Shown piece after piece: positions 7,204-48,212 of a stretch of DNA of 64,000 bases. The number at the start of each line of letters is the position of its first letter. Position 1 is the stretch's first letter. A program made the position numbers and the translations under genes. The DNA comes from Symbiodinium sp. CCMP2592 (taxonomy: Eukaryota; Sar; Dinophyceae; Suessiales; Symbiodiniaceae), in the NCBI GenBank assembly GCA_905221615.1, contig CAJNDT010004968.1, positions 229,122-293,121 of the forward strand. The letters are read 5' to 3'. Under the pieces are notes generated by a model. The model had not been told where the DNA came from, searched no databases, and saw only the letters and a list, made by a program, of their open reading frames with translations.

Positions 7204-7457
7204 GCCTCAGGAGTGCCGCTACCATTCCTGCAACTCCTACTCCTGCTGCTGCTATTGCTACTGCTACTGCTACTGCTACCACCACTGCCACTACCACTAC
7301 CACTACCACTACGACTGCCACATACTGCCACTGCTGCTACTACTACTACTACCACTACTACTGCTACTACTACTACTACTGCCACTGCCACTACCACTAC
7401 TGCTACTACTACTACTACTACTAGTAGTGCTACTTCTACTATTACTAGTACTATAGT
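7204..7457. repeat. CTA/CTG/CCA trinucleotide microsatellite, left insertion flank
   Basis: About 250 bp of trinucleotide repeat (CTACTG, CCACTA, then CTACTA). It ends in ACTAGTACTATAGT, directly against the TG end of the retrotransposon LTR. Long Leu/Val/Thr homopolymer frames on both strands come from the repeat. Confidence 0.9.
7453..7457. repeat. Target-site duplication ATAGT, left
   Basis: ATAGT immediately precedes the TGCGTGGG end of the LTR. The same five bases follow the CA end of the last LTR at 48213-48217. Five bases is the usual duplication length for Copia-type integrases. Confidence 0.65.
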
Positions 7458-7890
7458 TGCGTGGGGGATTGATCTCGACTTGGTTGCTGCTCTCCCCACC
7501 AGAGCTGTAATGAATGTAGGTGTGGCTGGCTAGCACTCTCCACAGACTGGACCCTGTCTCTCCCTCTTACTTCCACACGTGCAATCCTATGCAGGCAGAA
7601 CCGGCGGCCGTTCCTTTTGCACTCACTGCCGGCGGCGGTTCGTCTGTGCAACGGAATAGCTCTGATTGCTCAGGATAGAAGACACATATAGCACTTAGCT
7701 ATGGGCATTGACTTGAGCCAAAACGTTGCGTTGGCGGTCACATAGAAAGGTAAAGATGAGGGATGCGTAGCATGCCCCCTAGAGTCGAGGGACGCGTAGC
7801 GTGCCCCCTTCTCTTGCACTTTACACGGTCTTGCTCACAGCTCTTATAGTGACACCTTAGAACATGACAAGGCATCGCAGTCCGTTCGCA
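7458..7890 (-). repeat. 3' LTR of copy 1 (433 bp)
   Basis: It begins TGCGTGGGGG and ends GTTCGCA on the plus strand, so both ends obey TG...CA and the outer four bases are inverted (TGCG/CGCA). The same sequence recurs at 28519-28952 and 47781-48212. Inside it are two imperfect copies of a 23-base unit, GAGGGAYGCGTAGCRTGCCCCC, at 7758-7780 and 7787-7809, and the spliced-leader-like tail at 7712-7723. Confidence 0.92.
7712..7723 (-). promoter_or_regulatory. Spliced-leader-like tail TTTTGGCTCAAG inside LTR
   Basis: On the element's coding strand the LTR reads TTTTGGCTCAAG. This is identical to the last 12 bases of the 22-base dinoflagellate spliced leader as I know it. The bases just upstream (CGCAACG) match the leader only partly. 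It lies about 168 bases from the LTR's 5' end, where a transcript start would be plausible. I infer that a trans-spliced leader was captured by reverse transcription, or that this marks the mRNA 5' end. Copy 2 LTRs have one T fewer. Confidence 0.55.
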
Positions 7891-8140: not shown

Positions 8141-11100
8141 TCAGGCGTTGTCTCGCCACCATCTTCGCGTTGACGTAGGATCGCGGTCCCAGGGCCGGAG
8201 GTTCTCCTCTAGATACTGGTTCCTTGGCTTTCCTTTGTCCTTGCCTTTGTTTCGGCCTTTGGCGGCGATGTAGTCGTGGTAGGAATTGGTGTTCCAGCCA
8301 CCATGTTGCTCGCCTCCGGTTCTTCCACGCCCTTTTGAAGGTCCCTTGGATGAAGAAGCGCTTTCACGTTCCTCCGTAGTGACAGGCGTGTCCAGGATGG
8401 AAGTACCACCTGGAGGAAGATAGTCAGCGGCCGAAATGTGATGTAGGGCCTCCGTACGCTTTGTCGTCGGGTTTTGCTGTCTCTCAGTTTTGGATCTGTT
8501 CAATCTGTCCATGAAATGCGCAGGCATCTGCACACTGTGGTCCACCAGCAAGGCGATGGTCTGGACTGACTGGTCAGAATGAGTCAGCAGAATACCAACG
8601 GGGTCGATGTACAAGAAGTCCACTGTTCCAGTTGGCGTTGGTCGTAGCACTGAGAATTGTTGGTGTCCCGTCACCATTGGGATCACCTCGCATAGGACGT
8701 TCAGGCAACAAAAGTGCATTGCCTTTACATCTTCATCCCTGTCGCTCTTCAAGTAAGTAGTAGGGTTGAAGTTGTCCCTGCCAATTCCCATCATGTTGGC
8801 TCCACGTACAAGTAAAGAAAGCATCTGGTTCGTCCGGAAGCGCTTCAAGGTGTAAGTCCCGTTGGGATCATACTGTTTGAGGTTCTCAGGTTCCTTTGCA
8901 AAGCGAATGATCTCCTCATCAGTCACGTCCCTGCTCACGCCTGTTTCCTTATCCACTGCCGCCAAAGATCCCCACTTTCCAAGCACATCATAGCGTTGGC
9001 CAAGTGCGAAACTTTCCCTCATCTGAAACAACGGCATAGTCGCCCACTTTGCGAATCCTGACCAAGCTTTGTAGATGGATCTGCATACCACGTATGCCAT
9101 GTACGAAAGAGCGGTCATGTTCGCGTCAATGCAATGGGCATTTCGCTTTCCAGAATAGTAAGATGGCTGCATGGCGGTACGTGCAAGTTGTAGCTCAGGA
9201 TCGATGTTCAAAGACTGGCCGGTAATGAAGACGGGACGACGTTCCTGTGCGATTGCTTCTGGAACTGCGTCATCAAAGTCCTCTTCAGGTTCGACGTCCA
9301 TTTCTTCATCAGGTTCCTGTTCTGGATCGTCCTCCGCGACGAGAGATGGTTCTGGGATTTCTTCAGGTTCCGCAACGGTCTCTACCTCCATGGCTTCCTG
9401 CTCCTCTTCGGGCGCCTCAGGCACTGCGGCTGCTGCGGCTTCCATTGTCTGAGCAATGAAGTCACTGGGGATCTCCGTAGGAGTCTCCCGTTGTGGAGAA
9501 CCTTGGTAATATCCGCTCGAAATGAACTGTGACCAGCAAGACGTGCATCGGGAGAAACATGCTGGAACGATGTTGTAGCATGCCGGGCATACCCTCATTC
9601 TCCGTCCATCCTCGTCTCTGCGTAGGTCTTCGGGTCGCCAATTCTTGATGACAAACTTGATTCCTTTGTCCATGTAGTGATGCCGAACCGTGTTCTCCCT
9701 GTGGGACTCCAGGACAGTTGTGAGGTCACGAATGATCTGCTCCTTGCTTGTGTCGTGGGGTCCAGGAGGCATCTCGCAAAGCAATTCCATGATCTTGCTT
9801 GGCGTTCGGTATCTCTCGAACTCGGGAAGCAACGGCGATGCATTGTAGTCCAACACCAGCTCTTTCTCCAACCTTTCATCGTAGATCTTTTCCACCAGAG
9901 CGAAAGAGTGTGTATCTCGAGGATCAGGGACGCAAAACCATACCTCCTTGACGAAATGGAAAGGTATCGTTCGACCAACGATCATGATGCCGCTGTCTGT
10001 GATACGTCCATCCTCTCGTGCAAGATCTTGCGATGGGACATGAAGGACCGCCAATGGCATGTGCTTGGCGTCTCGTCCATGTACTCGCATCTTGGTCGTT
10101 GCGTTCCGGTGATCGAACGGCGCAAACACCCCCCAATAGCTGTGGAGTCTGCCGCCTTGGTTGCCTCGGAATTGGCGCCTATGGTCGAAGTCCCCGTCGG
10201 GGTCCTCCGAACCAGGCATGATGCCTTGCGTGACAATGGAATCCAAGTTGCGGCATGCCGTAGCGTGGAACGCACCTCCAAGACGTTGCAAGAGGGTCAT
10301 AGATGGAGATATTGCGAACCTGTTCTTGTCCAACTGAAGCAAGTTGTTCTGGGGATCTGAATGCGCAGAGTGACCACTCGTAGCCCGAACTGCCCATGGC
10401 TTCACCCAGCCGTTGCATAGGTTCAGGTACCTCTGGCCATGCCGGCAATGGTCGTTGCTCTGGATCTCCGTGATCTGGTCCCGAACTGATACCAACATGT
10501 TCGAACCTGCTGATCCAAGAACTTCCGTGCCGGGGTCCTTCACTCTCACACCCAGGAACTGCAACCGAATCTTGGCCTTGTTGCGTTTCGTGGCTGCAAT
10601 CATGTTCCCCTGGAACAATAGCTGAAGTCTTTCATTGTACACTCTCTTCTTCTGTTGGTCATCGGTCCTTGAGACCCCTTCGGTGATGCGTCTGCTTTCA
10701 TGGGTCCATAGTGGCTCATGCCTCACCAAGTCTTCGATCAGCACCCACCCTCCTTCATCACATTTGATGACACTGTTGAATGCCACCTGGCACCGGTTGT
10801 CAAGCCACTCCGAGCCCGGGCGCCTGGCGATTCTGTGGCGCAAGTCAGACTGGATGCATGATAGCGCCCAATCCGCATTCAACCTGCGCTGACGGGTGAT
10901 GTTGCGAAGGACAACTTCGTTCACGATGTCCCACCGATTGTTGATGAAGCTTGCACCCTTGGTTGGGATCAGGTCGAGAATCCCGCACCGGATTGGCCTT
11001 CCGCCGCCGATGGATTCATAGCCTGGATTGGTGTAGCTATGAGTGTTTTCATCGTAAGCAAAGCTAGGACGGTCTCCTCGTTGAGGTAGGCGTCGGTCGC

Positions 11101-12661
11101 GATGGTCCGAAAGCTGCTCAATGATGTCCACCACTCGCTGGCTATTCTCTGGTCCCGATTCCTGCAGTGGTACGCCACAAGCATCATTTAGGCCCCGACG
11201 ATTCTCCACATCCGTGCAGAGATTGTGTTTGTTCTCATAACGGATCAAGACCACATCACCCCGTACGGCTTCGCCTCCGCGTCGCGGTCGGGCTTTGGCC
11301 TTGGGTCGTCGGTCCGAGGATGCAACACTCACATGATCTGTGGCGTCAACGTCCATTGGTTCAGCCTCTTGTGAAGGTACTCGACGTGGATATCGAAGAA
11401 GACTTTCCTTGATGATCTGGACGCCTCGAAGTACCAGGTCCCGGGTTGCAGCATTCTCTGTGCAATTTGACAGAGTATGCAGGTCACTGCCACAAGCAAC
11501 ACAGAATGTGATGCGATCGCTTCCGACTGACATCTCGCCCTGAGCGAGTACGCCAACATAGTCCTGAAGCTGCGTGACAAATCCTTCACGAATTGCATGC
11601 CTGGGATCAGGGCCTTCTGCACCTTGCTCTTCTTCGGGTTGCGCATCCACATCCACATCTTGTGCAGGTATTGGTGGAGCAACTGAGAACCCTGGATCGT
11701 CCGTGACGTTGTCAGCGGCCTGTGTCTCGTCGGTTCTCGTAATCTCTACAGGGTAGATATCACCATCGACGATCACTGTGAAATCAATCACGAGGTCAGC
11801 GGACATGTTGTTGACGATCTCAGCGACTGCTTCATTCTTCTTGGGCGGTGTCCTTTTGCGCGGGGAGTCAACCGTGATCAGCTCGATGGCTTCGGCCGAC
11901 GCGTAGCGGAAGAATGACCTTTCGATTCCTCTCGCACACGCATTTGCTCCCTCAAGGCCACCCCAATTCGGAAAATGACTTGGGTGTCTCATGGCAATCG
12001 TAAGAAGCCCGAGCGCCAGCTCCAATGTGTCACCCAGGAGCTCTTCCTTGGGCGAGACTGACCCTCGGTAGCATTCTTGGCGCTCTTCTGGAGTCAAAAG
12101 CATCCTCATGAAACCAGCATAAGCGCAGTTCCCGGCGTCGTAGTAGCAGATGTAGCATGTCTTGCCTTCGGAGTCGTATCCTCTGTCCCACGCCAACTGT
12201 TTGGCCTTTCCCCATGCCGCGTACTCGATGGCCTGACTGGCTGTGATTCGGAGACCACCGTAGTGAGAAACCGTCTTGCCGATGTCTTCATAGACCATCT
12301 CTGCACAAACTTTGAGGAACTCCTTGATGTCCACACGAGGATCCACGAATTGAAGCCTCAGGTCATAAAGGTGCTTTGCGCAAGCCAAGGTGTACTTCTG
12401 GGACGCGATCAAGTCATTGAAGGAGCTGATTTGATGCTGCATCTTCAAAGCTGAAGTATGCGCGCACCCAATGCAGTGCCCAGGATACCCGTTTCCGGTC
12501 GGCTTGAAGAAGGCTTGTGCGTAGCACTCAGCCAACTTCATTCCCTCACATCCTTGGCAATAGAACGTTCTCCCTTTGACATAACCAGTGTTCGGGGTCG
12601 CATAGGTGTCGATCCTGAACCAGTAGTGCCTGTTGTCGTAGTAGGCCTCGGGAACGGTCAT
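8141..12661 (-). CDS. Retrotransposon ORF2, C-terminal part with Tpt1/KptA-like domain
   Basis: 1,506 codons. In copy 2 the frame runs straight through from the upstream ORF2 piece (QDFDIAMTVPEAYY), so the ATG here is probably internal and the break near 12672 is a one-base loss. Residues 35-66 hold a C-x2-C ... C-x2-C pair, and 387-400 a further cysteine group. Residues 600-905 carry the Tpt1/KptA motif series. Residues 1025-1042 form CPAC ... CTSC, a zinc-ribbon pattern. An acidic Glu/Pro stretch covers 1075-1140, and the tail (1430-1485) is Gly/Lys/Arg-rich, as in RNA-binding regions. Residues 1150-1400 are unassigned. It sits downstream of pol, where other elements carry env or extra ORFs. 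Function in the element unknown. Confidence 0.85.
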   Translation of the reverse strand: MTVPEAYYDNRHYWFRIDTYATPNTGYVKGRTFYCQGCEGMKLAECYAQAFFKPTGNGYPGHCIGCAHTSALKMQHQISSFNDLIASQKYTLACAKHLYDLRLQFVDPRVDIKEFLKVCAEMVYEDIGKTVSHYGGLRITASQAIEYAAWGKAKQLAWDRGYDSEGKTCYICYYDAGNCAYAGFMRMLLTPEERQECYRGSVSPKEELLGDTLELALGLLTIAMRHPSHFPNWGGLEGANACARGIERSFFRYASAEAIELITVDSPRKRTPPKKNEAVAEIVNNMSADLVIDFTVIVDGDIYPVEITRTDETQAADNVTDDPGFSVAPPIPAQDVDVDAQPEEEQGAEGPDPRHAIREGFVTQLQDYVGVLAQGEMSVGSDRITFCVACGSDLHTLSNCTENAATRDLVLRGVQIIKESLLRYPRRVPSQEAEPMDVDATDHVSVASSDRRPKAKARPRRGGEAVRGDVVLIRYENKHNLCTDVENRRGLNDACGVPLQESGPENSQRVVDIIEQLSDHRDRRLPQRGDRPSFAYDENTHSYTNPGYESIGGGRPIRCGILDLIPTKGASFINNRWDIVNEVVLRNITRQRRLNADWALSCIQSDLRHRIARRPGSEWLDNRCQVAFNSVIKCDEGGWVLIEDLVRHEPLWTHESRRITEGVSRTDDQQKKRVYNERLQLLFQGNMIAATKRNKAKIRLQFLGVRVKDPGTEVLGSAGSNMLVSVRDQITEIQSNDHCRHGQRYLNLCNGWVKPWAVRATSGHSAHSDPQNNLLQLDKNRFAISPSMTLLQRLGGAFHATACRNLDSIVTQGIMPGSEDPDGDFDHRRQFRGNQGGRLHSYWGVFAPFDHRNATTKMRVHGRDAKHMPLAVLHVPSQDLAREDGRITDSGIMIVGRTIPFHFVKEVWFCVPDPRDTHSFALVEKIYDERLEKELVLDYNASPLLPEFERYRTPSKIMELLCEMPPGPHDTSKEQIIRDLTTVLESHRENTVRHHYMDKGIKFVIKNWRPEDLRRDEDGRRMRVCPACYNIVPACFSRCTSCWSQFISSGYYQGSPQRETPTEIPSDFIAQTMEAAAAAVPEAPEEEQEAMEVETVAEPEEIPEPSLVAEDDPEQEPDEEMDVEPEEDFDDAVPEAIAQERRPVFITGQSLNIDPELQLARTAMQPSYYSGKRNAHCIDANMTALSYMAYVVCRSIYKAWSGFAKWATMPLFQMRESFALGQRYDVLGKWGSLAAVDKETGVSRDVTDEEIIRFAKEPENLKQYDPNGTYTLKRFRTNQMLSLLVRGANMMGIGRDNFNPTTYLKSDRDEDVKAMHFCCLNVLCEVIPMVTGHQQFSVLRPTPTGTVDFLYIDPVGILLTHSDQSVQTIALLVDHSVQMPAHFMDRLNRSKTERQQNPTTKRTEALHHISAADYLPPGGTSILDTPVTTEERESASSSKGPSKGRGRTGGEQHGGWNTNSYHDYIAAKGRNKGKDKGKPRNQYLEENLRPWDRDPTSTRRWWRDNA
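9947..10864 (-). other. Tpt1/KptA-like RNA 2'-phosphotransferase domain (in ORF2 copy 1)
   Basis: Residues 600-905 of the 1,506-codon frame carry, in the family's order: LRHR (607-610), GGWVLIEDLV (637-646), KIRLQFLGV (697-705), VRATSGHS (758-765), FHATACRNLDSIVTQGI (798-814), GRLHSYWGVFA (837-847), LAVLHVPSQDL (870-880) and GRTIPFHFVKEVW (896-908). Tpt1/KptA enzymes remove a 2'-phosphate from RNA using NAD+, with catalytic Arg-His and two further Arg. Candidates here are R608, H609, R759 and R838. The gap between GWV and GHS is longer than usual. The motif order is seen directly; activity is inferred. Confidence 0.72.
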
Positions 12662-14997
12662 GGCGATGTCAAATCCTGCCAGGTGACTGTGGACGATTCA
12701 GCGACCGTGTCACCCTGGGCACCCGACCTGATCTGTTGCTGCTGTTCCCCCGTAAACCATGTCTGCGAAATCTTGGTGGACGTCTTGACTTCACTCTTGT
12801 CCTCCCAAATCTCGACAAGCGACGGGTGAGCGACTAAGTCGGTTCTGACTGTCTCGTCCCATGAGCGAACTTTCGATGCCTCAACAAAGCACGTGGATAC
12901 CATCTTCTCGCAAAACAGCTGCTTCTCATAGATAGCTAGGCCCAATTTGAACCTGACCCGATTGTCCGGTGGTGGCACCTTTTCGACTGACAATGTATGT
13001 ACGCCCGACGACGCATGTTTCGCCTGACTGTACATTCTTGACCAAAACGAAGATCCATGAATCACCACACATGCTCGGGCCCGCAACTCCAGTTCAATAT
13101 ACATTCCCAGCGCGTGGAAACCATTGAACATAGAAGCTTTCTGTCGAAGGTAATTGCTGGCTGCTCCTACGAACCGTAAGTCGTGGTTGATGTTGACAAT
13201 TGGAGGGCGCGTGGTACGCTTCCCTGCCGCAATGATGGGGTCAACGTACGTGGCCTTGAGCTGTCGCTGCAAATCAGCACGAATCGCTGCTCCGTCTCCG
13301 ACCTCACTCATCGGAAATGATATGTTCTCGATGAGGATCGCTTGGAGAGACAGATGGTAGTGCAATGTGACGGTTGCAAGCTGCTCTTCAGTCAAGCCAT
13401 CCAATGTCTCATTCACAGATTCCAACGATCCCTTTGTGACTTGGAAGTTGTAGTTGGCACCTGCGGTGATCGACGGGCTCACAATGTAGATCTCACTCCA
13501 TCCATGCATGACGAGATTCTCTCTCACTGTATGCGATGACCCTCTGGTCCTTGCGACCATGTCAAAGTCTTGGACGAGGATTGTGCATTGAGAGCGCATA
13601 GTCGCGGCATCAGGCTTGCCACCCATACCCAAACTATTGCGAAATCCGTTCAGCGTGTTCATGGTGTTGATCCTTGCTTCTGCCGGAATTTCATCGTTGT
13701 CGACAAGATCGCTGTCTGCCTCGATCATCACAGCCGAGGTAAGCATTGGAGGAGAAGGAAGATGCACGCACGACACCAATGCCAATGCATGGTATAGCCG
13801 CGAGTACATCCGTAACCACATCTTCGTGCTCAGCTTCACGTAGACCTTCAGGTTGAGACCCTTGTCGTCACTTTGAGAGACGGATCGAATCCTTGCCAAG
13901 TAGGTCACCAGTCTTCTGACGTAATGCTGAATTGGTGTGGTCCCCACGTCGTGGTTGGCCACGAACTTTGGCGTCTCATCAATGGTAGGTGGGTACTCGT
14001 CTTGATCACGGGTCGTCGCCAGCAAGCTCGAGCGACAGCCCTTTTCATCGATGTTGACGTAATGGTACCAACTTTCCTGAGCGCCAGCGGGGATTGGAGC
14101 TTCCTCCCATGTCGGTTGCGATGGTTCCTCTTCCGGTTGCGAAGTCGGTGGTTGTGGAGGAGGTGCCGCAGAAGATGACGACGCCGATGCCGTTGCCTCG
14201 TCCGTCCTTGCCCTCTTTGGTCCGTGGCTAGGGGTGGCTCGAGGCTCGGTAGCGGATCCTTGTGGTTGTCCCGGCGTTCTTCCATGCTCAGGGTGCACGA
14301 TTCCTTCCGGTTCGAGGTTGCTTGCCGTAGGCATCGCCACCCTCCCCGTTGAGTACACCCAGCTAGGATGCCGTTGAAGATTGGGCGGAAATAGGCCATC
14401 ATCTTGCAGAAGCGGTCTTGGTGCCTCCATCTGTTGGAATTCTGCTTCCCATATGCTCAACGTGGCGCGTTTGGTAGAGCAGTCGACCACATACCCAGAT
14501 TCAACTCCGCATTGATTCCAGGTGTAGCTACGGAACGCATCCGGCAATTGGAAGCCGTTCCTGTCCTGATCTGCACATACAGCATCCACGTGGTGCTTGA
14601 GGAAAGAGTACGTGGTGTAGTCGGAATCAGGGAGCACATCATTGGACCATCTGTAATGCGGGTGTCCAGTGTCTGGATCAACCCATGATACGTAGGAATG
14701 AAGCACGTGGAGACAGACACTGAACGCCTGGAGCGAGTTCATCGCAAAGGCGAGCGGGTGTCCCATGCCTTGAGGCATTGTGCGCATCATCAGGGCCAGC
14801 TGGTGAACGTTGAGTGGCGTGGCGCCATCGTTGTTCGCAGCACATTCTTGGTTGTAGGTCCGTAGTCCATATCCAGTGTGTTTCGCGAACATGTACATCA
14901 GCTTGCACACCCTACATAACGTAGGCTCCGCCAACAGGTCTGATTGGTCAGGTGCTCTACCCGACATTGGCAACTTGTGGTAGTAGTCCTGATTCAC
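12658..14997 (-). CDS. Retrotransposon ORF2, middle part (copy 1)
   Basis: 779 codons in the frame that precedes the KptA-bearing part. It is separated from the N-terminal piece by a one-base loss near 15012 (GATT against GAATT in copy 2). Visible features are a CRVC pair near the start, a Ser/Pro/Gln-rich linker around residues 240-300, and a long globular remainder with no motif I recognise. Copy 2 keeps the upstream join intact, so this is one protein with its neighbours. Confidence 0.75.
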   Translation of the reverse strand: MNQDYYHKLPMSGRAPDQSDLLAEPTLCRVCKLMYMFAKHTGYGLRTYNQECAANNDGATPLNVHQLALMMRTMPQGMGHPLAFAMNSLQAFSVCLHVLHSYVSWVDPDTGHPHYRWSNDVLPDSDYTTYSFLKHHVDAVCADQDRNGFQLPDAFRSYTWNQCGVESGYVVDCSTKRATLSIWEAEFQQMEAPRPLLQDDGLFPPNLQRHPSWVYSTGRVAMPTASNLEPEGIVHPEHGRTPGQPQGSATEPRATPSHGPKRARTDEATASASSSSAAPPPQPPTSQPEEEPSQPTWEEAPIPAGAQESWYHYVNIDEKGCRSSLLATTRDQDEYPPTIDETPKFVANHDVGTTPIQHYVRRLVTYLARIRSVSQSDDKGLNLKVYVKLSTKMWLRMYSRLYHALALVSCVHLPSPPMLTSAVMIEADSDLVDNDEIPAEARINTMNTLNGFRNSLGMGGKPDAATMRSQCTILVQDFDMVARTRGSSHTVRENLVMHGWSEIYIVSPSITAGANYNFQVTKGSLESVNETLDGLTEEQLATVTLHYHLSLQAILIENISFPMSEVGDGAAIRADLQRQLKATYVDPIIAAGKRTTRPPIVNINHDLRFVGAASNYLRQKASMFNGFHALGMYIELELRARACVVIHGSSFWSRMYSQAKHASSGVHTLSVEKVPPPDNRVRFKLGLAIYEKQLFCEKMVSTCFVEASKVRSWDETVRTDLVAHPSLVEIWEDKSEVKTSTKISQTWFTGEQQQQIRSGAQGDTVAESSTVTWQDLTSP

Positions 14998-15753: not shown

Positions 15754-18700
15754 TTAGTTGTTCCTTAGTTGGGGCTGTCTAATAGCCCCTTCATCAGCGT
15801 CTACACACTGATGTTGCTGCCATGCAATGTCCTCAGATTCATGTGCAACATGACTGACACTGACATGAGCTCGAACAAGGCTGCGAACATTTCTCGCAAT
15901 TGACCGCCATGAAACATCAATGCGCTGCGACAAACTGTTCTTCGAATCATGGTCCAAGCAATCATTCAGTCTCATCACCAAACGGTCCGCTTCAGGCATG
16001 TTAGAGAACATGATCCTGCGTCCACCACCATCGCCATCAGCACCAACATGATCACCAACCTTAACCTTCGTCACCTTGCCACTTGAAACAAGAGCATGCA
16101 ACTCCGGCCAAGACCAACATGAGCATGAAGAAGGCATGTCAAGCGAAAAATAGACGTCGGAAAATTCCGCACACTTCTTCAGCAGGCGTTTGAGAGATTT
16201 CAAGACACTTCTGAAAACCTTGTACTTCCCACCAGAACGTTTTTCACCCCCCACGCAAGCCCCTTCACTACTTCCAGGACCAACACCTGATCGCAAAAGC
16301 GATGCCACGAATAGCACAGGTGTGCGCAGGTCGTTCCGGCACGCATCCTTCATTGTACCGATAAGGCTGTCCTCATCGGCCTTGGAGCTGATCAGCTCCT
16401 TGCAAGTTATGCGAGAGCAACCTTTAGTGGACTTAGGTACGGCGTAGCCGTTACCCAAGCCACAGAGGTCAACAATCATGCGGTCTGGCTTCCGTCCACC
16501 AGCCTTCGACGGCATGGCTACCAATCTCCCATCGCCAGTTGCCTGAAATTTCAAGGCTTTAAGCAATCTTCTGGAGATTTGGCTAGTCAACTCGCATTTA
16601 TCAGATCGATCCTTAGCGTCCGAATCAGTCATGTGCAAATGTTTGGACGAGCACACATCAGACGACTTAGGATGCAACGCGACGTTTGCGGCAATGTACT
16701 CCCATTCATCCTTGCAGTAGCCGAGCTCAACGGCGGTTCCAGGAGATACAGGATCCCGAAAGGTATAACGCTGCCCGTGAGTGCATCCTTGGATCTTGAT
16801 GCTCTTCCACATGGCATCTTCCTGAAGTCCCTTGTACTGCTTGGTTTCCTGGACTGGTACTCGAGGAGGCACTTCGATGATGATTTGGAACCCCCATGAT
16901 GCCGCTCTGCGCGCAATTCTTTGGACGACCTCCCCCCATGGGTAGTCTGTCCGCAATTTGGCCCTTTCAGGGTTGTCAGCGATTTTCCGACTCAGCCACG
17001 AATTCTTGCCCAACACCCCTGCACCAATGAAGATTACGGAGTTAGGGTTGTCTTTCCTTGCTTGCACCACATCAAAGATGTAGGCGCACATGGCGTCGTC
17101 AACTTCTCGCCCCATACTCAGAACATTTACTTGCAGCCCAGGGTCGTAGTGAGAATCGGGAGCATGCTGGGCGATGCAATCCTTGCCTGGAGCATACTCA
17201 TTCCACCAGTTCTCCTCATCGACTCCTATCAATGTCCATACCGTCACTGCCTTTGGAGCATCTTTGATAGTGATACGGTACTTCCACCGGCTGTAAGGAT
17301 TCTTGTAAGCATGGACCAACCTTCCATCGTGGTCGAGGAATTGGATCACCAGGCCCTCCTTGGGTTTGTTTTCGGCGAAATTGACCACGTGAGGCACAAT
17401 TGCTCCATCATATCCTTGATATTCCCTTTTCTGTTCCGCCGCATCATGCCATACATCTTCGTACACCGATGACCATTGGTCATAACCAAATTGAGAGGCT
17501 TGACTTTTGGATTGGCCGTTGAAACAAAATCCCTGGTGTAATGTAAAGCCCTGGTACCCCCCATGGATGGCACGCGCCAGTGTGACAACCACCGCTCGCC
17601 ATTGGGCGGGCAGGGCGCGCACATAAGACTGGCCGAGAGGCGGCTCAGGAATAGGCAGAAACGGCGGCGCAAGGACGTCCGCAATGGCAGCGGGGCGCAA
17701 ATGCCCCCGCACGGGATGGTACTGGAACACAGCACGTTCCACGTAGCGGTCGAACTTGCCCGGTGTGTCAAGGATAGCAGCACGATCCTCCATTTGGTGC
17801 CACTGCCCTTCACGAAGAATCCAAGTCGACCGAAGGTAACGACCAGGCGGCAACGCAGAAGGCGGCCCCCGCAACATGCGCGGGAACTTGACAACCAGGA
17901 TGGGGTCCACACTGTCATGTTCTTGCAAGCCTTCCTTACTCGACAATCCAGCGCGATACAACACCTGAGGGAGGATCGGCGTCTGCGTGTAAGGAAAACA
18001 AGGCACCTCGCTCTTGAACGAGTAGTGCTGCTGACCCTTCTCATCCGTGCTTTGGGTATGAGTAGGCCGCATCAGATCCATAATCTCTTGGGAGCCGATG
18101 AGATCCGGCGGAAAGATGTTGATGAGCTGACACGCATGTGTCCAGGACACGGAATCCTTGAACGATTTGGTGTGTATGTCCGCGGACATCTTGGCAGTGA
18201 CCTCGTAGGCAAGAGAAACGTAACCTTCCTGAAAGATAGAATGCATCCATCCAATACAGATACCGTGGGTACGTTCCAAGTGACGCATAGTCGGATTCTT
18301 GCCCGTGCGAATCACCCCGATCATGGTCTGGTTGTCGTCGTAGAAGACGAAGTTGGGGTCTTGCCCCCCAAGCTGCTGCCACAACGTGATAGCAGGCAAT
18401 CCAAGACGTGACATGGCAAAGTCGGCCGCGACAATCTCGGCCTCAGGTGTGGAATGACTCAAGCATCCCTGCCTTTTGCTAAGTCCCGCCAAGGGAAATC
18501 TTGTGTGAGAACCTTGAATGTGCAAATGAGCACCGGAGGTAGATTTCAAACTTTCTCCACAACCTGCATAGTCCGCATCTGCAAACAGCCCGATGGACGA
18601 GTCCTCCAAGGAGTTCCCGACCCATCCAATCATCATGTGATGTTTGGACTGGTGCACATAGGCCATGAGATGATGAAGAAGAGCATCCTCCTTCTTGGTC

Positions 18701-20508
18701 CATTTCGTGATCTTGCGTGCGAGATTGTTGATACTGCGCAGAAGATCAAAGCGGCAAATGCGCGCGGCATAAAGCAATTTCATGAGAATGCTGGCTGCCT
18801 GCGGAGCAAGTGCGCCGCGATTGGCCTCGTTGATTTCCTCTTCCTCGGGCGCCTTGGGAATAGGTGGAGGCGGAACGAGCCGACCATCCTTATCAACAGG
18901 CATGGTGTGTCCACACCACGTGCATCGATGGCTTTTACCTGACTGTGCCGGAGCGCGAGCTGGGTGATTCTTAGTCTCCTCAGCCGGACTCGGCGATGGT
19001 ACCGTCTTGAATTTTGTCGGATCGAACCCAGTCACGTCGCAGTACTTCTTGACTGTCATGTCCAGGTACGTCTCCATGTCGTAGGTAACGGTCTGCACCT
19101 TCGTTTTGTCATGCAACGTTGCCTCGCCCTTGGAGATGCGACAACCCAGATACAAGCCCAGCGGCGTTTCTTCTTCCAATCGAAGTTCTTGGCGCAGCAT
19201 GTCCCAACCCTTGGGTAGATTCTCTTTGGGTCCTGCCATCTTGAGATCATCCACGTAGATGACAAGTAAGAGCTTCATTTGCGGGTGAAAGTACAATGAT
19301 GGCCATTCATCACCAATCGGCTTGAATCCTACTTTCTGTACCGCGGTGTGGCAATGTTGTTCCCACATGGTTCCTGCGTCAGGATGTCCATATAGAGCTT
19401 TGATCAGGCGACATACCGGCCTACGGAATTTGTGCCGTTTCGCAGATGGATGCCAGGCTTCATCAGGCAGTTCAACCCAACACGGAGTGCCCGACAATCT
19501 AGCCTGAATGTATGCTTGGATAGCATCCGCCATCTGGACATCGTTGCCAGGAAGACATCCGTAATAATCTGCCCATCGTGAGGCGTCAAACGTAGCCGGG
19601 GAATTCCCCAAATCCTGAAACAATGCGGCTTCCATATTCTGGTCTTTGACCTGATCACCGAGTAGTACACCTCGCCCCTTGAACTTCCTGGCAGGATCGT
19701 CCTCTTTGAGCTGATAGTTCTTCTCGTATATCAGTCCATGTACTCGCGCCATGTGTACTTTCTCACCTTTCTTCTTTGCCTCAGCGACGACGTCGTCATA
19801 CTCACGCGTAGTTGAGAAGTCAAACACTTCTTGGTCCCACAATCCCTTCCATTCTTTCATGAAAGCTTCCATGGCCTTGGGATTGTTGATCATTTCTTTG
19901 CGTGTGACGGGTCGAGTGACCATGGCATTGAAGCACGATCCTCCTGCATGATTCTTTTCCCGATGTACGTTTCTGTGAGAAGTCGTACACGGCATAGAAG
20001 GAATCCAGTTATCATCCATGACCATATGCGCCGGAACAGCCGGCACGACATCTGCCAAGAATTGTTCCTGTGTATATTGATCCACATAGGACTGTGCCCA
20101 TGACCAACCATCGTCGTCGTCAACGGTCACGTTGAGTTGCAGATCAATTTCTTCACACGGGACAATCTTGGGAAAGATCATGTTGTCCAAAGTCTTGGTG
20201 ACTATCTTCTTTCCTATCACAGCCTTCTTCCGGTCTTTCTTGGCAACTCGAGCTTTGTCTCGCTTTTCTTTCTTGTATGCTGCCTTCTTCTCCGCTTCGC
20301 TCATCTTCTTCCATGCTTCCGGAGAATAAGAATGGATAGGTCGCCGTGTAGGAAGAGTTCGTCGACCATCACTTCGGATCTTGTACGGAACTCCCCTTTT
20401 GTCGATCTTGCAAGCTTCACCGTCATCGGTAAGATATACAATGCCGTCTCCTTTCTTCCCCGTACTCCAATGTTCAATCTCCTCGGGAGCCAACTTCTTT
20501 TCTTTCAA
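15754..20508 (-). CDS. Pol: reverse transcriptase, RNase H and long C-terminal tail (copy 1)
   Basis: 1,584 codons. The Copia-type RT core spans about residues 209-460, with CRLIKALYGHPDAG (366-379) and the catalytic VIYVDD (416-421). A small cysteine motif, CTWCGH (529-534), sits between RT and RNase H. RNase H spans about 628-784: GLFADADYAGC, STPEAE, YDDNQT and the closing DIHTKSFKD. Residues 785-1584 are a tail of about 800 residues beyond the normal end of a Copia Pol, with IFIGAGVLGKNSW (1159-1171) and IVDLCGLGNGYAVP (1345-1358); I cannot assign it. The 5' side is joined to integrase in copy 2, so the start here is an artefact of a one-base loss near 20596. Confidence 0.92.
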   Translation of the reverse strand: MKEKKLAPEEIEHWSTGKKGDGIVYLTDDGEACKIDKRGVPYKIRSDGRRTLPTRRPIHSYSPEAWKKMSEAEKKAAYKKEKRDKARVAKKDRKKAVIGKKIVTKTLDNMIFPKIVPCEEIDLQLNVTVDDDDGWSWAQSYVDQYTQEQFLADVVPAVPAHMVMDDNWIPSMPCTTSHRNVHREKNHAGGSCFNAMVTRPVTRKEMINNPKAMEAFMKEWKGLWDQEVFDFSTTREYDDVVAEAKKKGEKVHMARVHGLIYEKNYQLKEDDPARKFKGRGVLLGDQVKDQNMEAALFQDLGNSPATFDASRWADYYGCLPGNDVQMADAIQAYIQARLSGTPCWVELPDEAWHPSAKRHKFRRPVCRLIKALYGHPDAGTMWEQHCHTAVQKVGFKPIGDEWPSLYFHPQMKLLLVIYVDDLKMAGPKENLPKGWDMLRQELRLEEETPLGLYLGCRISKGEATLHDKTKVQTVTYDMETYLDMTVKKYCDVTGFDPTKFKTVPSPSPAEETKNHPARAPAQSGKSHRCTWCGHTMPVDKDGRLVPPPPIPKAPEEEEINEANRGALAPQAASILMKLLYAARICRFDLLRSINNLARKITKWTKKEDALLHHLMAYVHQSKHHMMIGWVGNSLEDSSIGLFADADYAGCGESLKSTSGAHLHIQGSHTRFPLAGLSKRQGCLSHSTPEAEIVAADFAMSRLGLPAITLWQQLGGQDPNFVFYDDNQTMIGVIRTGKNPTMRHLERTHGICIGWMHSIFQEGYVSLAYEVTAKMSADIHTKSFKDSVSWTHACQLINIFPPDLIGSQEIMDLMRPTHTQSTDEKGQQHYSFKSEVPCFPYTQTPILPQVLYRAGLSSKEGLQEHDSVDPILVVKFPRMLRGPPSALPPGRYLRSTWILREGQWHQMEDRAAILDTPGKFDRYVERAVFQYHPVRGHLRPAAIADVLAPPFLPIPEPPLGQSYVRALPAQWRAVVVTLARAIHGGYQGFTLHQGFCFNGQSKSQASQFGYDQWSSVYEDVWHDAAEQKREYQGYDGAIVPHVVNFAENKPKEGLVIQFLDHDGRLVHAYKNPYSRWKYRITIKDAPKAVTVWTLIGVDEENWWNEYAPGKDCIAQHAPDSHYDPGLQVNVLSMGREVDDAMCAYIFDVVQARKDNPNSVIFIGAGVLGKNSWLSRKIADNPERAKLRTDYPWGEVVQRIARRAASWGFQIIIEVPPRVPVQETKQYKGLQEDAMWKSIKIQGCTHGQRYTFRDPVSPGTAVELGYCKDEWEYIAANVALHPKSSDVCSSKHLHMTDSDAKDRSDKCELTSQISRRLLKALKFQATGDGRLVAMPSKAGGRKPDRMIVDLCGLGNGYAVPKSTKGCSRITCKELISSKADEDSLIGTMKDACRNDLRTPVLFVASLLRSGVGPGSSEGACVGGEKRSGGKYKVFRSVLKSLKRLLKKCAEFSDVYFSLDMPSSCSCWSWPELHALVSSGKVTKVKVGDHVGADGDGGGRRIMFSNMPEADRLVMRLNDCLDHDSKNSLSQRIDVSWRSIARNVRSLVRAHVSVSHVAHESEDIAWQQHQCVDADEGAIRQPQLRNN

Positions 20509-21932
20509 GATCTTGATAATCTCTCCAGGTTCTTCGATGTCTCCTTCGGGGATGAGTCTACCGGTTGGACCGACTTCGCGGGGCGATCGTCGATCTTCCC
20601 AGTGACCTTTGGTTCAGAAGGAGGCGGTGCTGCACGTAGACCCAGCTCTTCGTCTAGTTCTTCGAGTCTTTTGTCTCCTATGGCATCAATAGCTTCATGC
20701 TCTGCTGACTTGAAGACTTCGCCGAGCGGCTCCGTCTCAATGTCAGATGGATTTATGTCCTGTAAGTCAGGATCTTCTCCGGGATCCGGTGGAGGAAGAA
20801 GTCCACTTGGATCATCGTCATCCCCGTCGTCACCATCTCCTTCAGGCGGACCGTCACCACCGTCATCGACGTCTTTTATCTCCTTGCCAGCGAGGTCAAC
20901 GTTGTCCCTGAGTCCCTCAATGGTTGAATTCATCCTTTCGTACTCGGCTTTCAGGGGAAACGTTATCTCCTCTGGGAAGTAGATAACTTCTGTCTCGTAC
21001 GGTCTCATCAACTTCCTGGGAACAGATGCGTCCATCGACAAGTTCGCGTTGGCAAATTCCTTCATATCCCAAACGCGATACTTCTTGGACCACCCTTGAC
21101 CAGCAGTGATGATGTATCCGGCAAAAATGCCTGGAATCCCCTTTGGATCGAATTTGTTGCCATATGTCTTCGGCCTTGTGTCCGTCGGCTTGAAGAAGAC
21201 TTTGGCACCAAAGGGTATGGCTTTTCCCTCGAAGTCCTTTCCAGTCATTCGCTTCCATGCTGAATCACCATCGCCTTCCACGTCTTCAACGTTGAGGTTC
21301 TGCATCACGCAATTAAGCGCAAAGGACCAGTATTGAGCGGGCAATCCGGCGTGTAGCATGGATGCTGCGACTGTGTTGATCACTTCTTGATTTGACCGTT
21401 CAGCGAGTGAATTGTTACTGGGTTTCCCTGGAAGGGAATGATCAATCACGATCTTCAACTGTGCCATAGCTGAATCGAACTCTGGTGCTTCATCACTGTA
21501 CGCCATATGAATCTTGCGTCTTCCCATGAGGCGTCTGATGGCCATGACGACTTCGTCAGTGCTCCTTGAAGCCGTGGGAATCGCTGCAATCATTTTGGTG
21601 GCGATGTCCCTGATGACTAGAACCTCGCGTGCCCCGTCATCGAGTCCAATGCCTGCTTCGGCGGCCTTGCGCATGTCAAGGAAATCGAACGTCACAAGAT
21701 CTCCCCAGTGTTTGATCACACGTTGAAATGCACCTCGTTGTGTTCGCAAGTGCTTCATCTTCGCGCGTATGCACGATTCGCAATATGGATTGCGGTAGCG
21801 ATGAGTACACAGATGTGCCAATGTCTTCGCTTCGGCTTTCAGTGTTCCGACTCTGGCCTTGCGGCTCGGCGCACCGTCGCCTTCCACATCAATGATCACC
21901 TCATCGTCACCGTCCAATGGAATTTCACCCAC
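20505..21932 (-). CDS. Pol: integrase part (copy 1)
   Basis: 475 codons carrying the zinc-binding HLCTHRYRNPYCESC (H-x3-H ... C-x2-C) and the integrase core: GDLVTFDFLDM, AYSDEAPEFDS and NNSLAERSNQEV, which supply the D, D and E of the catalytic triad. After the core comes a region resembling the Copia integrase C-terminus (KAIPFGAKVFFKP), then an acidic Asp/Pro/Glu linker toward RT. One-base losses near 21937 and 20596 detach this piece at both ends; in copy 2 these joins are intact. Confidence 0.9.
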   Translation of the reverse strand: MGEIPLDGDDEVIIDVEGDGAPSRKARVGTLKAEAKTLAHLCTHRYRNPYCESCIRAKMKHLRTQRGAFQRVIKHWGDLVTFDFLDMRKAAEAGIGLDDGAREVLVIRDIATKMIAAIPTASRSTDEVVMAIRRLMGRRKIHMAYSDEAPEFDSAMAQLKIVIDHSLPGKPSNNSLAERSNQEVINTVAASMLHAGLPAQYWSFALNCVMQNLNVEDVEGDGDSAWKRMTGKDFEGKAIPFGAKVFFKPTDTRPKTYGNKFDPKGIPGIFAGYIITAGQGWSKKYRVWDMKEFANANLSMDASVPRKLMRPYETEVIYFPEEITFPLKAEYERMNSTIEGLRDNVDLAGKEIKDVDDGGDGPPEGDGDDGDDDDPSGLLPPPDPGEDPDLQDINPSDIETEPLGEVFKSAEHEAIDAIGDKRLEELDEELGLRAAPPPSEPKVTGKIDDRPAKSVQPVDSSPKETSKNLERLSRS

Positions 21933-24878
21933 TCCTTTCCTTCGTCGTCGTCCGGAGGTCGTCCGGCCTCGGACTCTGGTACTTCTTCTATAGGAGGTTC
22001 TTGGGGTTCAGGATCAGGAGGTCGTTCATGATCGTCACCTTCTTCTTCTGCTTCAATCTCGCTCGGTGCAGCTTCAGCGGCAGCTGCGACACTGACGTCA
22101 ACATTGCCCGCTGTTAGCGCACCCTTGAAGATTTCGGTGATCGCTTTGGCCTCCGGATCATCATGAACCAATGACTTGGAACTCCCGGCACGAACGTACG
22201 GGATGTCACCGTTCACGAACAGAGATATTCTCTTGCCCTGCGGGTTGATCATGAATGGTTCCCTTCCGGGAGGCCACACAAACCCGTAGTTGAAGTTCAT
22301 ACATCTCTTGCCTATGGAAAGCACCGACGGCGTGTCGTCCAACACATAAGCGTTGATCGGTTCCTCGAACGACTCAGTCTGGAAGTTCGACACGAGATCG
22401 GTATCGGTGATTCCATTGGCTGTCTGAAATGATATGGGCTCTGGAGTCACGAGTGTCTCGAGACTGTGCTTCTCGATCTTCTTCTGAGATATGAGGTCAT
22501 GACCACACCCAGTGTCCATGAGAAACTTGATCTTCTTCTTAAGGATGACTGGTTGAACCATACATTTGAACAAGCCTTGATTGATGATCCGTTTGCTGTG
22601 TGCAGCATCGAGTTCGCGCTCAACGATGGAATCCTCACCGTCGTAGAACGAAACTTCTTCCACTCGAGACGTTCCTGGGATTCGTACGAATGAAACTCGA
22701 TCTCCGCATTGATCATCATCGTCGTCAACCATGTCTCTCATGATCTGTGCCCTCAATCTCGCTTTGTGCTTGGCGAATTCCAAGCTCACGGCGCGATCCT
22801 CATCATTGATAAACGCTTCCATGTCGACGTACTTCACCTTCCGCTCTTTGTCTTTCTTCGATCTTCTAGGACACGAAGAAATGAACTTCACGTCATTGGC
22901 GAATGTCACATTCCGCTTTATCACTTTTCGGGTCGACGTAGTCGTTCCCGAGGATTCGTCATCTGTTGAACAATCCGAATCAGCGTCGCTGTCAACGGAT
23001 GGACAATCTGACTCCTCCTCATCTTGTTTTGAAGATCGCTTCCATATAGCCGGAGCTGATGGATTCCACCTTCGACACAATCTGATGGCGGGTGCAGCAG
23101 GGAGTGCCTTGGCCTTGGCATTCGGCTTCGCTGGAGCTGCCTTTGCTTCGGATTTGGCTTTAGCTTTTGCCTTTGGTTCCGGAGCTGGGGTAGCTGCTGC
23201 CTCATGCTTGAAAGGACAATTCTCTCTTGAGCACGAGCCTGTGTTCTTGAACGAGTAGCATATCCTGTTTCCTCCTCCTCCAGATGGACTTGGAGTTCTC
23301 GTCCTCGGCGTGAAGGGTCGCTCTGGAGTCTTCTTCGAGTGACTGAATGGACACTTATCGCCATTTCGACACCCTGCATCTGTGAAATGGAACTTGCAGC
23401 GGATTTGCTTCTTGCTTTTGTCACCTCTGTTGTCCGCTGACTCACTCCTCGTCTTCTTTTTGGGCTTCGGCTTGGTCTTCGCATGACTCTTCGCTTTGCT
23501 TTGAGGTAGTACAGGTGTTGCTTTGTCCGGTTTGGTCGGCGAAGCCTTGACCTTTGCGGATGGAGCCGCGTTAGGCGTAGGTTTCTCGGGTACCTTGGCC
23601 GGTGCAGCAAGCAAATCCTTGCCCTCAAGCATCTGGCGCAAGCCAATTTGAGTCTGAGTGAGATTTGACTGTTCTAGTTTCCGCATGATGGTACGATCAA
23701 TGATCTTCATCAGGTTGTCGTACGATCGATCTTCATGATTGTAGGGCAGGTGTTCATAGTGCATGACCAAGTCCATTTTCATTGCGGGCGAGTCCTTGAT
23801 CTTGCTGTACAAGCAATCACGGAGAGCTGTTTTGGATGGAATGTCCTCTGGTCTCATCCGTCCCAGAACTTCCAACCACGTCTGCTTGAACGTATGGAGC
23901 TTGTTGTCGCCTTGGTACTGGAGCTTCACCAAGTACTCAAGAGTGATGATCATGTCAAGACGATCATGTGTTCGAAAACTTTCGTACATCATCGCGATGA
24001 CTTGTCGCCCTTTGATGATCTTCACGTCAGGCCTGCTGATGTAATCATTGGCCTTCCGGTTCACCTCAAGGTACAGGTCAGCTGATTTGTCACCACCGGC
24101 ACGTAGCATTGCGACCATGGCGATCCCCAATTTGACGTCTATGCTCTGGAACTTCTTGTGTCCTGAATCATTCAATGCTTCGACATCAGGGAATGGGTTG
24201 AACGCTGGTGCCAGCCATAACATCCAGTCCTCATGATGTGGGTCGGCTGATGCCCCTAAGACATTTGCCGTGCACACAGATCGCCAGTTGTTGAGATGAG
24301 TGAGAGTAGGCCATGGAGGAACAGTAACTTTGTCGGCTTCCCTCCTGGAAACTCTCACCTCTGTGACTTCAGGATCCGCATCTCCATCAGGATCACGCGC
24401 ATGCGAACCAGGATCCGATTCGGGTTTGCCCCCTCCACCTTTCTTCTTGTCATCATCGTCGTCAGGCGGATCTGGAGGATCATACCCCGTGCCGGTACCT
24501 TCATCATGCTCATCCTCTCCGTTCTCGTCGCCAGCTTCATCACCGTCATCGTCTCCATTGTTTTCTTGAATCGTTTCAGCGAATAATCTCCACTCATCAC
24601 GATCAGCTCTGAGACGTTGTTCGGCTTTCTGAGCCTTGAGTACTTCACTTCGCAGATCAGCAATTTTCTCCTCGTACTGTTCCGCGATCTCTTTCTCGAT
24701 CTGACGCCTCCTTGCCTCATGGATGGAATCGTCATAGGCGACAGGGGGACCAATGAGGTCGTTGCCCTTAGTAGATGCGGTGACACCGTCGATGCCAACA
24801 GGTCTTGAGGAGCTGACCGATGCTGTGGACTTCGATCCCAACATCCCGCGATCTCCCAAGAGTTCGCGTAGCTGTCGA
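21896..24878 (-). CDS. Gag and aspartic protease (copy 1, cut by gap)
   Basis: The open frame from the gap edge down to the frame break. By alignment to copy 2 it covers residues from about 592 of gag-pol onward. Seen are a predicted coiled coil (IEKEIAEQYEEKIADLRSEV), an acidic Asp-rich linker, a Gag core region, two CCCH zinc fingers (about 23204-23398) and the protease motif FLMDTGCGHDLIS (about 22481-22528). Gag shells normally package element RNA; the fingers would be the nucleic-acid-binding part. The apparent N-terminus reading through N and beyond 24979 is not part of the protein. Confidence 0.88.
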
Positions 24879-24978
24879 NNNNNNNNNNNNNNNNNNNNNN
24901 NNNNNNNNNNNNNNNNNNNNNNNNNNNNNNNNNNNNNNNNNNNNNNNNNNNNNNNNNNNNNNNNNNNNNNNNNNNNNN
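24879..24978. other. Assembly gap (100 N)
   Basis: Exactly 100 N, the common placeholder for a gap of unknown size. It cuts copy 1 inside gag at the point matching 45944 of copy 2. The sequence beyond it is unrelated simple repeat, so the true distance and even adjacency are unknown. Confidence 0.98.
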
Positions 24979-28518: not shown

Positions 28519-28952
28519 AGCGTGGGCCGGATTGATCTCGACTTGGTTGCTGCTCTCCCCACCAGAGCTGTAATGAATGTAGGTGTGGCTGGCTAGCACT
28601 CTCCACAGACTGGACCCTGTCTCTCCCTCTTACTTCCACACGTGCAATCCTATGCAGGCAGAACCGGCGGCCGTTCCTTTTGCACTCACTGCCGGCGGCG
28701 GTTCGTCTGTGCAACGGGATAGCTCTGATTGCTCAGGATAGAAGACACATATAGCACTTAGCTATGGGCATTGACTTGAGCCAAACGTTGCGTTGGCGGT
28801 CACATAGAAAGGTAAAGATGAGGGATGCGTAGCATGCCCCCTAGAGTCGAGGGACGCGTAGCGTGCCCCCTTCTCTTGCACTTTACACGGTCTTGCTCAC
28901 AGCTCTTATAGTGACACCTTAGAACATGACAAGGCATCGCAGTCCGTTCGCA
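28519..28952 (-). repeat. 3' LTR of copy 2
   Basis: Matches the other two LTRs except at its outer end, which reads AGCGTGGGCCGG instead of TGCGTGGGGG. The terminal TG is lost and two C are added. No ATAGT lies outside it. The spliced-leader-like TTTGGCTCAAG is at 28775-28785. Confidence 0.9.
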
Positions 28953-29202: not shown

Positions 29203-29910
29203 TCAGGCGTTGTCTCGCCACCATCTTCGCGTTGACGTAGGATCGCGGTCCCAGGGCCGGAGGTTCTCCTCTGGATACTGGTTCCTTGGCTTTCCTTTGT
29301 CCTTGCCTTTGTTTCGGCCTTTGGCGGCGATGTAGTCGTGGTAGGAATTGGTGTTCCAGCCACCATGTTGCTCGCCTCCGGTTCTTCCACGCCCTTTTGA
29401 AGGTCCCTTGGATGAAGAAGCGCTTTCACGTTCCTCCGTAGTGACAGGCGTGTCCAGGATGGAAGTACCACCTGGAGGAAGATAGTCAGCGGCCGAAATG
29501 TGGTGTAGGGCTTCCGTACGCTTTGTCGTCGGGTTTTGCTGTCTCTCAGTTTTGGATCTGTTCAATCTGTCCATGAAATGCGCAGGCATTTGCACACTGT
29601 GGTCCACCAGCAAGGCGATGGTCTGGACTGACTGGTCAGAATGAGTCAGCAGAATACCGACGGGGTCGATGTACAAGAAGTCCACTGTTCCAGTTGGCGT
29701 TGGTCGTAGCACTGAGAATTGTTGGTGTCCCGTCACCATTGGGATCACCTCGCATAGGACGTTCAGGCAACAAAAGTGCATTGCCTTTACATCTTCATCC
29801 CTGTCGCTCTTCAAGTAAGTAGTAGGGTTGAAGTTGTCCCTGCCAATTCCCATCATGTTGGCTCCCCGTACAAGTAAAGAAAGCATCTGGTTCGTCCGGA
29901 AGCGCTTCAA
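29203..29910 (-). CDS. Retrotransposon ORF2, C-terminal end (copy 2)
   Basis: 235 codons equal to the last part of the copy 1 ORF2 frame, detached by loss of one A near 29962 (GCAAGCG against GCAAAGCG). It contains the unassigned region VDFLYIDPVGILL and the Gly/Lys/Arg-rich tail (KGPSKGRGRTGG). Stop is at the position equivalent to copy 1. Confidence 0.8.
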   Translation of the reverse strand: MKRFRTNQMLSLLVRGANMMGIGRDNFNPTTYLKSDRDEDVKAMHFCCLNVLCEVIPMVTGHQQFSVLRPTPTGTVDFLYIDPVGILLTHSDQSVQTIALLVDHSVQMPAHFMDRLNRSKTERQQNPTTKRTEALHHISAADYLPPGGTSILDTPVTTEERESASSSKGPSKGRGRTGGEQHGGWNTNSYHDYIAAKGRNKGKDKGKPRNQYPEENLRPWDRDPTSTRRWWRDNA

Positions 29911-47780: not shown

Positions 47781-48212
47781 TGCGTGGGGGATTGATCTCG
47801 ACTTGGTTGCTGCTCTCCCCACCAGAGCTGTAATGAATGTAGGTGTGGCTGGCTAGCACTCTCCACAGACTGGACCCTGTCTCTCCCTCTTACTTCCACA
47901 CGTGCAATCCTATGCAGGCAGAACCGGCGGCCGTTCCTTTTGCACTCACTGCCGGCGGCGGTTCGTCTGTGCAACGGAATAGCTCTGATTGCTCAGGATA
48001 GAAGACACATATAGCACTTAGCTATGGGCATTGACTTGAGCCAAACGTTGCGTTGGCGGTCACATAGAAAGGTAAAGATGAGGGATGCGTAGCATGCCCC
48101 CTAGAGTCGAGGGACGCGTAGCGTGCCCCCTTCTCTTGCACTTTACACGGTCTTGCTCACAGCTCTTATAGTGACACCTTAGAACATGACAAGGCATCGC
48201 AGTCCGTTCGCA
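47781..48212 (-). repeat. 5' LTR of copy 2 (432 bp)
   Basis: TGCGTGGGGG ... GTTCGCA, with the tandem 23-base unit and the spliced-leader-like TTTGGCTCAAG at 48035-48045. As the 5' LTR of a minus-strand element it should hold the promoter; no TATA box was identified with confidence. Confidence 0.92.

Follow-up and report, generated by a model that had tools for sequence, protein, structure and literature searches.

A Tpt1/KptA-like domain in Copia and LINE retrotransposons of Symbiodinium

Introduction

In enzymes of the Tpt1/KptA/TRPT1 family (PF01885), the RNA 2'-phosphate attacks NAD+ to give an ADP-ribosylated intermediate; the catalytic tetrad of the Cth enzyme is formed by Arg18, His19, Arg68 and Arg121, and an HGT motif (His and Thr) serves NAD (PMC6333775). 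Archaeal KptA removes the 2'-phosphate from tRNA (PMC9095486). Human TRPT1 ADP-ribosylates RNA, and mRNA capped in this way is XRN1-resistant yet untranslated (PMC9458441). The role of Tpt1 beyond fungal tRNA splicing, for instance in bacteria, has been called a 'longstanding conundrum' (PMC6333775). Here we describe a Tpt1/KptA-like domain in the second open reading frame (ORF2) of a Copia-type retrotransposon, found in a 64,000-nt stretch of Symbiodinium sp. CCMP2592 (contig CAJNDT010004968.1, 229,122-293,121, forward strand; hereafter the window). CCMP2592 is Symbiodinium tridacnidorum (PMC8045281), and the alga is probably a coral symbiont.

KptA has been captured by selfish elements before, namely by jumbo phages, sawfly baculoviruses, Bodo saltans virus, a picorna-like virus and a nidovirus; in two cases, one of them a nidovirus, it lies inside an RNA-virus polyprotein (PMC9503650). 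The accessible portion of that paper has no occurrence of 'retrotranspos'. The nearest precedent is the DNA methyltransferases carried by SymbioLINE-Dnmt and SymbioDIRS-Dnmt3, likewise retrotransposons of Symbiodinium in which purifying selection acts on an accessory enzyme that modifies nucleic acid (PMC5890265). Whereas those enzymes act on DNA and reside in long interspersed nuclear elements (LINEs) and DIRS elements, the domain described here belongs to an NAD-dependent family of RNA enzymes and resides in Copia elements and LINEs. Symbiodinium Copia elements were described as lacking any DNMT (PMC5890265). Among the papers listed in literature searches, with most subscription journals outside their coverage, none dealt with Tpt1/KptA in retrotransposons. 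In their accessible portions, a paper on retrotransposon accessory domains (PMC6338049) holds none of the strings 'ADP-ribos', 'phosphotransferase' or 'KptA', and a review of dinoflagellate genomics (PMC11453091) none of 'phosphotransferase', 'Tpt1' or 'KptA'.

Results

Identity and fold of the domain

Profile comparison and fold prediction confirmed that the domain in ORF2 is Tpt1/KptA-like. The Pfam model PTS_2-RNA (PF01885, cut-off 26 bits) matched it with 28.9 bits on a stretch of 306 residues (E 1.4e-6) and with 27.7 bits on one of 401 residues (E 3.2e-6); on the whole 1506-residue ORF, the score was 23.5 bits (E 6.3e-5), under the cut-off. A protein search yielded 11 homologues of 31-76% identity. 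The alignment used below comprises nine sequences, the window domain included, with identities down to 31%; P0012 and P0007, which are missing their C-terminal part, and P0010 were left out. Eight of the nine, again including the window, individually matched PTS_2-RNA at E<=0.01. With a home-made profile of seven Tpt1 seeds, the domain reached 18.3 bits, compared with 9.7 for the best of 2000 shuffles.

The structure predicted from an alignment that held no known Tpt1 matches both Tpt1 lobes, the winged-helix RNA lobe and the NAD lobe, rather than a generic ADP-ribosyltransferase (ART). The match is a VIA-align realignment of Foldseek's own list, in which an absent family would be missed. It also supplied the approximate domain bounds (model residues 33-370). 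A sequence-only reading of the window had placed the domain at 9947-10864, a span that falls inside these bounds, and had overlooked that it is encoded on the minus strand. The KptA profile match and the ART-core fold on which that reading hinged are both borne out here. In PDB, the sole match of the nine-sequence profile below 0.01 was the archaeal Tpt1 8tfz (0.0056), followed by DarT1 (0.078), and the domain searched as a single sequence gave nothing at E<=1. None of the NCBIfam RNA 2'-phosphotransferase equivalogs matched the window domain; these models are undecisive for eukaryotes, because the LINE-borne domains and the host-like exon described below also score far under their cut-offs. 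The empty single-sequence search and the low score of the whole ORF are what a chance resemblance of the motif series would lead one to expect, but the fold match over both lobes, the profile matches in eight of nine sequences and the shuffles refute it, and we give it practically no credence.

Conservation of the catalytic residues

The motif series recognised in the sequence-only reading, with candidate catalytic Arg, His, Arg and Arg, is present as LRH, GWV, RATSGHS, HAT and GRLH. Sequence alignment equates the tetrad with R49, H50, R200 and R300 of the 401-residue stretch, and HAT with H240 and T242. Invariant throughout the nine-sequence alignment are DEGGWV, RA, a Gly and HxT, as well as the last two Arg of the tetrad. 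The LRH Arg (10838-10840) and His (10835-10837) are found in eight of the nine; the ninth, P0005, begins behind the motif. Among eight genome sequences, both window copies included, the LRH pair and the HAT His (10265-10267) occur in all, the HAT Thr (10259-10261) being uncounted there. The RATSGHS Arg is present in seven and replaced by His in L036, so that the full tetrad is kept in 7/8.

The domain thus shares both lobes, the Arg-His-Arg-Arg tetrad and the HxT motif with the known family. It differs in lying inside a retrotransposon ORF of about 2,500 residues, in having some 55 extra residues inserted after the GWV region and before RATSGHS (judged by eye), in its long branch in the tree and in a diverged C-terminal edge. 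Around the position of the basic residue Cth Arg139/Rsl Arg137, the window domain is diverged and gapped, and the LINE-A domain seemingly has no Arg there either, as judged by eye. The large insertion, the diverged edge, the weak profile match and the one copy with an altered tetrad would suit a catalytically dead domain that serves ORF2 as an RNA-binding or structural module. We consider this improbable: the third and fourth Arg and the HxT His and Thr are invariant in nine sequences down to 31% identity, the LRH pair and the tetrad are kept as counted above, and mere RNA binding should not require these residues.

Copy number, selection and linkage to pol

Genome counts given here and below are lower bounds, since the best candidates were scored. 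With the window domain as query, all 103 places scored (of 1218 candidates) were 99-100% identical to it and free of stop codons in the domain, and 39 of them had an open frame of at least 2490 residues. When a more distant sequence served as query, 104 places were scored (of 1188 candidates), 103 of which were stop-free. United, both queries found at least 205 places on 194 contigs.

Selection was assessed on both window copies together with six diverged ones, whose identity to the window domain is 49-83%, giving 28 pairs among eight sequences; the pairs share sequences and hence are not independent, and L039 was compared without its stop codon. The ratio of nonsynonymous to synonymous substitution rates (dN/dS) was 0.06-0.15 in all 15 pairs with dS below 1.6, the window pair aside, and 0.16-0.26 in three pairs with dS of 1.7-2.8; nine pairs were saturated. 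The window pair gave 0.10, a value resting on four nucleotide differences. As judged from these ratios, the Tpt1 domain of the Copia element is shown to be under purifying selection.

The sequence-only reading had made its case depend on the domain recurring in related elements. It does: in 3/3 diverged copies examined, the domain is preceded on its own strand by Copia pol, with main pieces 60-95% identical, although in L042, at a contig end, the match is limited to the part behind the reverse transcriptase (RT) domain. In the Symbiodinium sp. KB8 gene model P0007, where Pfam names no domain, Copia RNase H runs into ORF2, as seen by eye. Given the many stop-free copies, the dN/dS values, the tetrad, the upstream pol and P0007, the comparisons indicate that the Tpt1 domain has long belonged to the Copia element and is under selection there. 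A faulty scaffold, the N gap at 24879-24978 and the two near-identical copies could instead suggest a host TPT1 gene or retrogene caught beside or inside a Copia copy, or misassembled, with the domain foreign to the element. The reading is rejected as very improbable on account of the copy number, the long ORF and the upstream pol; P0007 also speaks against it, and a host-like TPT1 exon in this genome is no near relation.

Architecture of the Copia element

The coordinates of the element are collected in Table 1. The Tpt1-bearing element belongs to a family of large (about 19.7 kb) Ty1/Copia long terminal repeat (LTR) retrotransposons of Symbiodinium. LTRs with TG...CA ends, a target-site duplication, an RVT_2 RT and dispersed near-identical copies are all present. 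The RT match (E 2.4e-8, 34.3 bits) exceeds the RVT_2 cut-off of 31.6 bits. Two stretches of CCCH zinc fingers lie in the gag-like ORF (zf-CCCH, E 1.1e-5, over cut-off), which also gave gag-asp_proteas at 1.4e-4, under cut-off. The integrase region matched rve_3 (E 0.0052) and SH3_retrovirus (E 0.0015), both under cut-off. Chen et al. 2018 reportedly described heat-activated, recently expanded Ty1/Copia elements in Symbiodinium microadriaticum, a member of the same genus.

Table 1. Features of the Tpt1-bearing Copia element in the window
Feature	Position	Strand	Basis
Target-site duplication ATAGT, left	7453-7457	none
3' LTR, 433 bp	7458-7890	-	0 mismatches, 1 gap against 47781-48212; TG...CA ends
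ORF2, largest piece, 1506 aa, contains Tpt1 domain	8141-12661	-	one-piece homologue P0002
Tpt1/KptA-like domain, winged-helix RNA lobe and ADP-ribosyltransferase NAD lobe	9875-10888	-	fold match
Fourth tetrad Arg	10085-10087	-	invariant in 9 aligned sequences and 8/8 genome sequences
HxT (HAT) NAD-binding motif	10259-10267	-	His and Thr invariant in 9 aligned sequences
Third tetrad residue, Arg of RATSGHS	10385-10387	-	invariant in 9 aligned sequences
Arg-His of tetrad (LRH)	10835-10840	-	alignment to known Tpt1 domains
ORF2, middle piece, 779 aa	12658-14997	-	frame-shifted against other pieces; homologue P0002
SGNH/GDSL-hydrolase-like fold in ORF2	12886-13629	-	predicted fold
ORF2, N-terminal piece, 215 aa	14994-15641	-	ATG at 15641, 112 nt past pol stop codon
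pol, RT (RVT_2) and RNase H region	15754-20508	-	Pfam; RNase H by eye
Integrase region, upstream of RT (Ty1/Copia order)	20505-21932	-	weak Pfam matches
gag-like part, CCCH zinc fingers and aspartyl protease	21896-24877	-	Pfam
LTR at inner end of second copy, edge imprecise	28520-28952	-
Second copy of ORF2 piece, domain about 30936-31949	29907-34136	-
5' LTR, 432 bp	47781-48212	-	paired with 7458-7890
Target-site duplication ATAGT, right	48213-48217	none

Two element copies, with the N gap between them, lie within 7453-48217. Their outer LTRs differ by one gap, and ATAGT stands on both outer sides within CTA-rich repeats of the same kind; in such repeat-rich flanks, this 5-mer is weaker evidence than usual. 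The near-identical outer LTRs, the shared flanks, the N gap and the imprecise LTR edge at 28520 suggest that the two copies are probably a single insertion assembled twice. Their Tpt1 domains differ by one amino acid and four nucleotides over 401 codons.

ORF2 sits behind pol, in the position of env. In the window, frameshifts break it into three ORFs; the homologue P0002 is a single protein of 2490 residues. Besides the Tpt1 domain, ORF2 has cysteine clusters that, by eye, have a zinc-binding look. Its SGNH/GDSL-like region shows no clear GDS serine motif by eye and may be inactive; some LINEs have esterase domains in ORF1. The first ORF2 piece gave a match to the nuclease-like PBECR1 (E 0.067), far under cut-off. 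Among the ORFs of the element, Pfam found neither an RNA ligase nor a kinase or 2H domain. The C-terminal tail of pol (about 15754-16500, minus strand) resembles the start of P0011 by eye; a PCTGGSSW stretch there is reminiscent of a methyltransferase, and P0011 matches no Pfam model at E<=0.05.

Tpt1 domains in LINEs

In a genome search with the Pfam model, the best 150 of 1550 candidates were scored and yielded at least 152 matches to Tpt1. By match coordinates, 15 of the matches listed are LINE-A-like, two LINE-D-like and one host-like, and the others are LINE-B-like. The grouping is our own; the places fetched that hold the domain number ten for LINE-A, ten for LINE-B and one for LINE-D. 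Tpt1 therefore looks like a regular component of several kinds of mobile element, Copia and three groups of LINEs. The sequence-only reading had recognised the Copia-borne Tpt1, but missed the likely double assembly and these LINEs, whose Tpt1 is more canonical.

In LINE-A, Tpt1 (E 1.7e-44) and an EEP endonuclease share one ORF, and the gene model P0017 combines Tpt1, EEP and RT, all over cut-off. EEP/RT pieces were found at 7/10 fetched loci, with the RT piece of L018 on the opposite strand; the remaining three apparently stop short of the expected EEP/RT place. At the one LINE-D locus fetched, EEP and RT come after a Tpt1 ORF (1.5e-39), and all three exceed their cut-offs.

LINE-B has a 665-residue ORF in which a weak PARP-like stretch (2.3e-4, under cut-off) accompanies Tpt1 (1.3e-39). 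At L012:6322-8283 (minus strand), such an ORF pairs the PARP-like stretch, no part of which passes alone, with a canonical Tpt1; the LINE-B protein possibly unites two ART folds in one retroelement protein. The neighbouring ORF contains EEP (0.0049, under cut-off) and RT (4.7e-22, over cut-off), and RT pieces occur at 4/10 fetched loci. This RT ORF, at L009:3-4694 (minus strand), ends in C2H2-like fingers (under cut-off) and a ubiquitin carboxyl-terminal hydrolase (3.3e-8, over cut-off). At C890:313718-338999, LINE-B units of about 10.1 kb are arrayed in tandem, head to tail, and the stretch matches itself at 96.6% over 15.2 kb and at 99.4% over 5.0 kb.

In LINE-A and LINE-B, dN/dS was 0.09-0.13 for the pairs that have diverged most, which in each family all involve one diverged copy. 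Within the 10 kb fetched around the host-like TPT1 exon (L002), none of the three element polymerases was found. A tree of 21 rows and 200 of 438 columns, built on a subset of the copies and homologues, kept the Copia-borne (support 100/100), LINE-B (100/99) and LINE-A (94/98) domains apart, the first on a long branch. The forks joining LINE-A, LINE-B, LINE-D and bacterial rows have 27-44% bootstrap; the tree thus neither establishes nor dismisses independent captures, and the LINEs may have inherited Tpt1 from one ancestor. Viral contigs scanned with the nine-sequence alignment gave 28 matching stretches, none of them a relative.

The sequence-only reading had also raised the possibility that mobile elements account for some 'tRNA 2'-phosphotransferase' annotations in dinoflagellate genomes. 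One case supports it so far: P0014, annotated 'TRPT1' in Symbiodinium CCMP2456, and the LINE-B ORF share 48% identity over 557 columns that include part of the PARP-like stretch. P0013 ('Trpt1, partial', KB8) clusters with LINE-B in the tree. At least one such annotation is therefore an element ORF or a relative of one.

Discussion

What could a retrotransposon gain from such a domain? We lean, by a modest measure, towards NAD-dependent processing of the element's own RNA phosphates by the Copia ORF2 protein, a proposal built on sequence and predicted fold. ORF2 would bind element RNA via the winged-helix lobe and the putative zinc-binding cysteine clusters, and the Tpt1 domain would use NAD+ on RNA phosphates within the element ribonucleoprotein. 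It could strip 2'-phosphates left by cutting and religation of element RNA or tRNA, providing a clean template or primer for RT. Alternatively, it could ADP-ribosylate 5'- or 2'-terminal phosphates and so shield the ends of element RNA from exonucleases. Element RNA would be the simplest common substrate, because the RNA-reading residues are kept and LTR elements and LINEs both carry the domain. This shared carriage points either to that common substrate or to a host RNA-based defence met by both.

The domain might instead be directed at host molecules, acting as an ART or phosphotransferase on host tRNA, on RNA signals of defence or on protein, and favouring the element over host or competitors. 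In line with this, KptA in phages and a few RNA viruses has been discussed in terms of RNA repair and conflict (PMC9503650), LINE-B unites the weak PARP-like stretch with Tpt1 in one ORF, and the ubiquitin hydrolase of its RT ORF could be host-directed. However, the RNA lobe and the phosphate-reading tetrad are kept, neither of which an ART acting on protein ought to require, and we regard host targeting as rather unlikely, if worth serious thought. Alongside the processing of element RNA, which we favour, we tentatively put forward a broader scenario that is itself doubtful. In dinoflagellate hosts, marking or breakage of retroelement RNA may leave 2'- or 5'-phosphates behind, through a novel cut-and-ligate or 2'-phosphorylating defence, and several lineages of two retrotransposon classes may separately have taken up or kept Tpt1 as a counter-enzyme, in an NAD-dependent arms race at the RNA level.

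The finding would add an NAD-dependent RNA-phosphate enzyme to the coding repertoire of retrotransposons, in LTR elements as well as LINEs and at hundreds of loci of a single genome. Gene counts of 'TRPT1' in dinoflagellates may include genes of mobile elements. Elements that keep Tpt1 under selection would offer a natural system in which to hunt for its substrate.
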